Source: Promethearchaeota archaeon (GTDB lineage Archaea; Asgardarchaeota; Lokiarchaeia; Sigyniarchaeales; SOKP01). Taken from it: a stretch of 40,401 bases of DNA. The notes beneath the pieces are model-generated. The model was given only the letters and a program-made list of their open reading frames with translations, did not search any database and was not told the origin of the DNA. Position numbers and translations under genes: made by a program. This document shows, one piece after another, positions 23,317 to 33,715 of this stretch. The first letter of the stretch is position 1. Each line of letters starts with the position of its first letter. The stretch lies in assembly GCA_030667705.1 (NCBI GenBank), contig DAOUVJ010000009.1, positions 1 to 40,401 on the forward strand, written 5' to 3'.

Positions 23317-23688
23317 TCATTCTTGTATTTTTATATTTCGAACGTTAGCTTTCTTTCCATCAATTATCTCTGTATTTTTGCTTTCACAATGTTTGCATTG
23401 AAATAATTGGAGTCCAGTCAACTGTGATTCCTCACTAAGAGAAACAGCGGAGATTTTTCCACATTCTCTACATTTTATATGTCCGGGGATGACTTCAATG
23501 ATTAATTCTGCGCCCTCAGCTATTGACCCACTCGTTGCCATTTTAAAAGATTGTTTCAATAACTCAGGAACTATTAAGGTTAGTTCACCAATTTCGAGGT
23601 AAACTTCGGTAATTTTATTCGAATTATGTTTTAATGCTGTAGCTTCAGCTACTTTAAAGATTTGATAAGCAAATGAGAATTCGTGCAT
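23317..23688 (-). CDS. hypA: Hydrogenase nickel-insertion protein HypA
   Basis: The 123-residue protein starts MHEFSFAYQIF; His2 and the N-terminal amine bind nickel in this family. It also has the structural zinc site CRECGK ... CKHCES, two CxxC pairs. HypA delivers nickel to [NiFe]-hydrogenase together with HypB. Neither hydrogenase nor hypB is in this window, but the gene implies a [NiFe]-hydrogenase in the genome. It begins 9 nt after the SRP19 gene and is probably cotranscribed with it. Confidence 0.92.
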   Translation of the reverse strand: MHEFSFAYQIFKVAEATALKHNSNKITEVYLEIGELTLIVPELLKQSFKMATSGSIAEGAELIIEVIPGHIKCRECGKISAVSLSEESQLTGLQLFQCKHCESKNTEIIDGKKANVRNIKIQE

Positions 23689-23697
23689 AATTAATTA

Positions 23698-23994
23698 TCA
23701 TTTTTTTGATTGGGTTTTTTTTAGTTCTTTTGCGATTTCTATCAAAACATGTGATTTTTTTTTCCCTTTTGTATCTACTACAATTCTTCCAGGATCATCC
23801 CACCACGTTCTAGGATAATTGTAATTATTTTCTAATTGAACTTTATATCCTAATTTACGTGCGGAATTATGTAAATCTTTTACATTCACACGATCAATTG
23901 CATATTTTACCGGTACGCGCCTTCCTTGAGCTCGCGTTCTTTTGGCATCAAAATATTGTGGCCAAAAGATAATAAAAGGTTTTCGAGCACGCAT
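23698..23994 (-). CDS. srp19: Signal recognition particle subunit SRP19
   Basis: The 98 residues contain the family core IIFWPQYFDAKRTRAQGRRV and the later NYPRTWWDDPGRIVV. SRP19 binds the tips of helices 6 and 8 of 7S RNA and allows SRP54 to assemble, for co-translational targeting to the membrane. The length is normal for archaea. It is first in a minus-strand run srp19-hypA-NUDIX. The lysine-rich C-terminus is usual. Confidence 0.94.
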   Translation of the reverse strand: MRARKPFIIFWPQYFDAKRTRAQGRRVPVKYAIDRVNVKDLHNSARKLGYKVQLENNYNYPRTWWDDPGRIVVDTKGKKKSHVLIEIAKELKKTQSKK

Positions 23995-24181: not shown

Positions 24182-24285
24182 GGGAGGGTGGTCTAGCATG
24201 GTATGATACAATAGCTTAAGCATCTTGAGCTTTGTTAAATCGGCTGGGGGCCGAGTGGCCGGGGGTTCGAATCCCTCCCCTCCCA
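24182..24285 (+). tRNA. tRNA-Pro(GGG) with a 30-nt non-canonical intron
   Basis: The acceptor stem GGGAGGG (24182-24188) pairs perfectly with CCCTCCC (24278-24284), followed by discriminator A. The T-arm is GGGGG-TTCGAAT-CCCTC. Anticodon loop CTGGGGG (24244-24250) gives anticodon GGG at 24246-24248, and the variable loop is TGGCC. Removing 24210-24239 joins C27 to TCGG and restores a five-pair anticodon stem with CCGAG, giving a normal 74-nt tRNA. The D-stem is weak (G10-U25 wobble, U13-U22 mismatch), and no CCA is encoded. Identity Pro is supported by the anticodon and A73. Confidence 0.85.
24210..24239 (+). other. Non-canonical tRNA intron (between positions 27 and 28)
   Basis: The 30-nt insert is placed so that the exons restore the anticodon stem. 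It forms a bulge-helix-bulge: four central pairs between 24204-24207 and 24234-24237 (U-A, G-U, A-U, U-G), flanked by 3-nt bulges 24208-24210 and 24238-24240, each cut after its second base. The intron itself continues as an 8-bp hairpin, 24213-24220 with 24224-24231. The outer helix is missing, the relaxed form known for non-canonical archaeal introns. Confidence 0.75.
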
Positions 24286-33605: not shown

Positions 33606-33715
33606 GGTCCTGTGATCTAGCCTGGATTTATCCTTTTCACGTCTTTCCGAAATGGATGCCAAGGGGTGCCCGCTTGCGAAGCGGGAGTTCGAGGGTTCGA
33701 ATCCCCCCAGGGCCA
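33606..33715 (+). tRNA. tRNA-Arg(GCG) with a non-canonical D-arm intron
   Basis: GGTCCTG (33606-33612) pairs with CAGGGCC (33708-33714), with one U-G wobble, followed by discriminator A. The anticodon arm CCCGC-TTGCGAA-GCGGG is perfect, with anticodon GCG at 33676-33678. The variable loop is AGTTC and the T-loop TTCGAAT. About 37 nt in excess lie between the D-loop and the 3' D-stem. Removing 33628-33664 leaves a normal 73-nt tRNA with D-stem AUCU/UGGU. The T-stem has one A-C mismatch (second pair). Confidence 0.82.
33628..33664 (+). other. Non-canonical tRNA intron in the D-arm (near positions 22/23)
   Basis: The insert folds as a hairpin: 33629-33633 with 33654-33658, one U-U mismatch, then 33635-33638 with 33649-33652. 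Next to it 33622-33625 and 33659-33662 make a central helix with three pairs and one C-A mismatch, flanked by 3-nt bulges (33626-33628 and 33663-33665). The boundary could shift by a base; the existence of an insert in the D-arm is more certain than its exact ends. Confidence 0.62.

Follow-up and report, generated by a model that had tools for sequence, protein, structure and literature searches.

The window, by which the whole analysed stretch of DNA (40,401 nucleotides) is meant, is a single contig from G000, a Lokiarchaeial assembly of 3.1 Mb that is 92.5% complete and 5.4% contaminated. Positions 24182-24285 of its forward strand hold a gene for tRNA-Pro(GGG), interrupted after tRNA position 27 by an insert of 30 nt. 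The 5' exon (24182-24209) supplies tRNA positions 1-27, the insert occupies 24210-24239, and the 3' exon (24240-24285) supplies positions 28-73, including the anticodon GGG at 24246-24248; the terminal CCA is not encoded. In tRNA numbering, the insert therefore lies between C27 and U28, within the anticodon stem, which is an uncommon position. The Rfam tRNA model matches 24182-24285 exactly, with 37.4 bits.

The limits of the insert were sought by a scan of single excisions, with any start and a length of 0-59 nt, ranked by a rule-based cloverleaf score. Removal of 24210-24239 gave the highest score, 31, compared to 30 for the runners-up and 20 for the best excision found in 60 shuffled genes. 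Once the insert is excised, the exons are intact and all arms are paired, so that the insert behaves as an archaeal tRNA intron whose removal leaves an intact tRNA. It sits before position 28 and is thus not a canonical 37/38 intron. Nor is it a self-splicing group I or group II intron, given that the Rfam cut-off is reached in the window by the tRNA family only, and 30 nt is far too short for an intron of either group. That this is a real Pro(GGG) gene with a 27/28 insert is confirmed. A promoter and terminator scan gave nothing informative.

An earlier note on this DNA had warned that a tRNA scanner might miss the gene or misread its anticodon, and both occur with ARAGORN. Under default settings ARAGORN reports no tRNAs in the window; with introns allowed (-i), it calls the unspliced gene Leu(taa) with a false intron, such that the anticodon would be miscalled. 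The spliced form is read as Pro(ggg). A common scanner thus overlooks or misnames interrupted tRNA genes of this kind.

Other tRNA genes of the assembly are also disrupted. The window holds a second one, for Arg(GCG), at 33606-33715 on the forward strand, with a D-arm insert of about 35-37 nt (best excision 33628-33664). It falls below the Rfam cut-off, is missed by default ARAGORN and is called Gly(gcc) when introns are allowed; the copy in G005 is 94% identical. Elsewhere in G000, a rule-based parse places non-canonical introns at 30/31 in Thr(UGU) and at 45/46 in Arg(UCG), each with four central pairs, and in the D arm of Thr(GGU); this parse models one intron only, left 3 of 24 candidate stretches unparsed, and is doubtful for the serine genes, L048 and L058. 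A selenocysteine-type tRNA with anticodon TCA was seen in G000 at L055 (G000:C82). A tRNA-Pro(CGG) gene was not found in G000 and is present in relatives, probably reflecting a gap in the assembly.

Orthologues of the gene across the genus

The genus is represented by 24 genomes, and a readable Pro(GGG) gene was obtained from 20 of them; the gene of G008 is cut by a contig end, and none was recovered in G012, G016 or G022. Site 27/28 fits 11 of the 20 genes and site 25/26 fits six, while three, those of G003, G013 and G020, are intron-less. Across the joint, the intron-less genes read ...GATAC|T(C/T)GG..., and their scores against the Rfam model are 56.7-58.5 bits, compared to 37.4 bits for the gene of G000. 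They agree with the isotype, Pro(GGG), and have the same joint as that left by the best excision; both the identity of the tRNA and the 30-nt insert at 27/28, as put forward in the earlier note, are thereby upheld.

A DNA pattern for the gene with its insert matches 25 stretches among the named genomes, every one of them from Lokiarchaeota or Lokiarchaeia. The placement of the window is based on near relatives such as L156, where the neighbouring proteins are 89-99% identical to those of the window. Two genes on the reverse strand are conserved upstream neighbours: that for SRP19 (23698-23994), which marks the orthologous locus, and a HypA-like gene (23317-23688). The SRP19 gene adjoins the tRNA gene in 23 of the 25 named loci and also in the intron-less G020, and in the intron-less G003 and G013 it is genes flanking the opposite side of the locus that are shared. 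Judged by these neighbours, the locus is orthologous across the named loci and the intron-less genes. The loci L009-L031 and L144-L168 represent one syntenic Pro(GGG) gene, within a single genus, that carries a 27/28 intron, a 25/26 intron or none. Genes at L147, L152, L158, L164, L165, L167 and L168 were added from the named collection, outside the set of G genomes; L161 could not be parsed and was dropped.

Further arrangements were also observed. Two-intron Pro(GGG) genes occur at L037, L065, L066, L030 and L168. One two-intron type, in G018, G033 and G034, combines the 27/28 site with the anticodon loop; another, in G026 and L168, combines 25/26 with a second site downstream, within or close to the variable region. 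In other genera (L033, L034, L036, L068, L086 and L092), the Pro(GGG) intron occupies either the D arm or a site near 43/44.

Intron fold, splicing genes and competing readings

The earlier note had drawn a relaxed bulge-helix-bulge at the joints, with four central pairs and 3-nt bulges. In this drawing, U22-U25 of the 5' exon (24204-24207) pair with GUUA at the 3' end of the intron (24234-24237), giving four pairs of which two are G-U, and 24211-24233 form a hairpin (24211-24220 with 24224-24233, nine of ten positions paired, loop CAU). The putative splice sites would lie in a 5' bulge, A26 C27^A (24208-24210), and a 3' bulge, AA^U28 (24238-24240). The four of four central and nine hairpin pairs are equalled by only 2 of 5000 intron shuffles; the outer exon-exon helix in the 27/28 register has two of four pairs. 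Among genes with a 27/28 insert, 12 of 13 have a motif that is equalled in fewer than 100 shuffles out of 5000. In G005 the motif is not distinguishable, since 862 of 5000 shuffles reach the same.

The hairpin covaries. In an alignment of 12 sequences, from which G005 with its 29-nt intron was left out, two-sided changes are found in eight of the nine hairpin pairs, and RNAalifold recovers the same hairpin unaided, indicating that the structure of the intron is kept by selection. When both helices, hairpin and central, are counted, 85.3% of cells in these 12 sequences are paired, as opposed to 68.0% after shuffling and no more than 49.4% when the register is slid. The central helix was not recovered by RNAalifold from the same alignment; 81.3% of its cells are paired, and it has one-sided changes only and no two-sided ones, because its exon side never varies.

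Folded freely, the precursor has its D and anticodon arms paired with each other, and the minimum-energy fold of the G000 precursor uses a pairing other than the drawn one, with a cost of 0.4 kcal/mol for enforcing the central helix. At least part of this helix is present in the free minimum-energy fold of eight of ten genes, the exceptions being G000 and G007, but when the acceptor, T and anticodon arms are enforced the central pairs are kept in none of the ten. Therefore the motif is best called relaxed on the basis of these models, and the splice site is rested mainly on the intron-less orthologues. As for the earlier drawing, its four central pairs can be reproduced, and so can a 3-nt stretch at each joint, but it is not the minimum-energy fold in G000.

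Genes for the splicing machinery are encoded. The splicing endonuclease family PF01974 is present in all 58 genomes, with at least two matches in 51. The best match of the catalytic-type protein is PDB 3p1z, and most of the G001 copy aligns with this chain, the places of Tyr, His and Lys included. These three residues presumably have their usual roles in the catalytic copy, and we take its GISKPR segment, as in G001, to be the loop tied to broad specificity. The other type of copy has no His at that place, and is the sole copy found in G000; the catalytic subunit, present in relatives such as G001, was not found in the G000 assembly, probably due to its incompleteness. The gene for the RtcB ligase is present in G000, such that the structural subunit and ligase are encoded in G000 itself and the catalytic subunit in relatives only. 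With a Tyr-His-Lys subunit (alpha, G001) and a subunit that lacks the His (beta, G000), the endonuclease pair fits the (alpha beta)2 class as far as sequence can tell. Typing of the endonuclease, which the earlier note had suggested as a check, thus yields a catalytic and a structural subunit in relatives.

Very probably, then, this is a functional, single-copy tRNA-Pro(GGG) gene with a non-canonical archaeal intron that is predicted to be spliced by enzymes. In the pre-tRNA, the last bases of the intron would form pairs with U22-U25 of the exon, while the remaining intron would fold into a hairpin, resulting in a relaxed bulge-helix-bulge. A splicing endonuclease of the two-subunit type would cut after C27 and before U28, and RtcB would join the halves to give a normal 74-nt tRNA. 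We infer this folding, cutting and joining, as well as the quaternary structure of the enzyme; the 27/28 joint itself is established by comparison with the intron-less orthologues.

Three other readings were weighed. Cuts displaced by one or two bases, to 25/26 or 26/27, would give a slightly different tRNA, and related genes do carry 25/26 introns, while the 27/28 motif is relaxed and departs from the minimum-energy fold in G000. However, only excision at 27/28 restores the C27-G43 pair and the sequence of the intron-less orthologues, and the motif decays in the displaced registers, where the central helix keeps one of four (25/26) and two of four (26/27) pairs and the hairpin zero and two; displaced cuts are improbable. 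It is more improbable still that the gene is a pseudogene, a decayed tRNA-Pro with a random insert. The failure of default ARAGORN to call the gene, and its place on a single contig of a metagenome-assembled genome, would suit such decay, but the exons are intact with all arms paired, the genus has the same intron site in 11 of its 20 readable genes, and the insert covaries internally. The earlier note had named a second intact Pro(GGG) gene as grounds for considering this one a pseudogene; a degenerate 5'-half search of the 92.5% complete assembly found none, returning this gene and an intron-less Pro(UGG) only. Least credible is a tRNA-Leu(UAA) with a canonical intron, as the ARAGORN -i output would have it. 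That identity is already refuted by the intron-less orthologues, which read Pro(GGG), as does the excised form.

Possible replacement or sliding of introns at the locus

Close relatives carry the same Pro(GGG) gene either intron-less or with another intron at a site two bases off, and intron turnover can therefore be traced at one locus. In the 25/26 genes, U20-G23 form the central helix with CGUA or CUUA, and the hairpin begins at C27. Most of the Pro(GGG) introns fit one register clearly, while those of G001, G002 and G005 are weak at 27/28 by a strict hairpin count. On a GltX tree, which has 24 rows, represents one gene and has some weak forks, the three intron states need at least five changes, compared to a shuffled mean of 8.4 and with a value as low in none of 200 shuffles; the 25/26 state needs at least two.

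Introns of the two types are unalike even between sister taxa. In comparisons where the pairs were hand-picked, the p values were left uncorrected for number and shared-site constraints may cause some of the likeness, 27/28 and 25/26 introns of four sister-taxon pairs (G007/G021, G007/G009, G006/G014 and G006/G010) resemble each other no more than shuffles do (p 0.47-0.88); 25/26 GGG introns resemble 25/26 UGG introns in five of five pairs (p 0.001-0.013, after removal of the 3' tail and against shuffles that preserve pairing); and 25/26 GGG introns give mixed results against CGG introns (p 0.025 and 0.67). Under the same provisos, the hairpins alone are weakly alike within the 25/26 GGG class (p 0.066 and 0.107), as are G000 and L158 within the 27/28 class (p 0.090).

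Another course considered was that the intron slid from 25/26 to 27/28 by way of a 2-nt repeat at its two ends. In 25/26 genes such as that of G014, both cuts yield an identical product, and G019 combines the repeat with the 27/28 motif, both of which would suit sliding. The idea is nonetheless disfavoured, given that the sister-taxon introns are unlike; the phrase "intron sliding" was not found for archaeal tRNA introns in the open-licence papers searched. Replacement is therefore the likelier course at the Pro(GGG) locus, and the likeness of 25/26 GGG introns to Pro(UGG) introns, together with their unlikeness to 27/28 introns, favours transfer between isoacceptor genes over sliding. Very fast divergence of the introns could also account for the pattern. 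With slightly less than even confidence, we suggest that a GGG-specific 27/28 family and a UGG-like 25/26 family alternate at the locus, having been replaced at least twice and lost cleanly. If true, this would imply that introns are still being transferred between isoacceptor genes of Asgard archaea. Close relatives with intron-plus, intron-minus and shifted-intron alleles provide a natural test bed for the gain, swap and loss of archaeal tRNA introns.

Relation to known archaeal tRNA introns

Archaea are well known to carry non-canonical tRNA introns (PMC4090602, PMC3218864, PMC3293823), and Asgard archaea of the Atabeyarchaeia and Freyarchaeia are reported to have abundant tRNA introns, often at non-canonical positions (PMC11291895). 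Introns of the present kind have thus already been described from archaea, other Asgard lineages included; what this one adds is a well-supported case at 27/28 from an Asgard archaeon, a member of the group nearest to eukaryotes. No paper on this Pro(GGG) locus was found among open-licence papers on Asgard or Lokiarchaeial tRNA introns.

Like the bulge-helix-bulge introns of Crenarchaeota, Thermoproteales and Nanoarchaeota covered in PMC4090602, the Pro(GGG) intron is short and lies outside 37/38, and bulge-helix-bulge-like joints can be drawn for it. The same source describes a 25/26 intron in tRNA-Pro(UGG) of Pyrobaculum, whereas 27/28 is not named in its list of sites, which ends in "etc.", and the host here is an Asgard archaeon. 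The introns of Atabeyarchaeia and Freyarchaeia (PMC11291895) share the Asgard host and the non-canonical sites, but belong to classes other than that of this Lokiarchaeon. The (alpha beta)2 class of endonuclease is linked to non-canonical introns in PMC4090602, PMC6379350 and PMC12397907, and, as in the enzyme that the latter two describe, one catalytic-type and one His-less PF01974 protein are seen here; the difference is that the complex is putative in the present case, with the catalytic subunit missing in G000. Likeness of introns is known in the form of similar introns common to different tRNAs of one group, whereas here the likeness is among the proline isoacceptors of Lokiarchaeota, and different introns occupy one syntenic locus.
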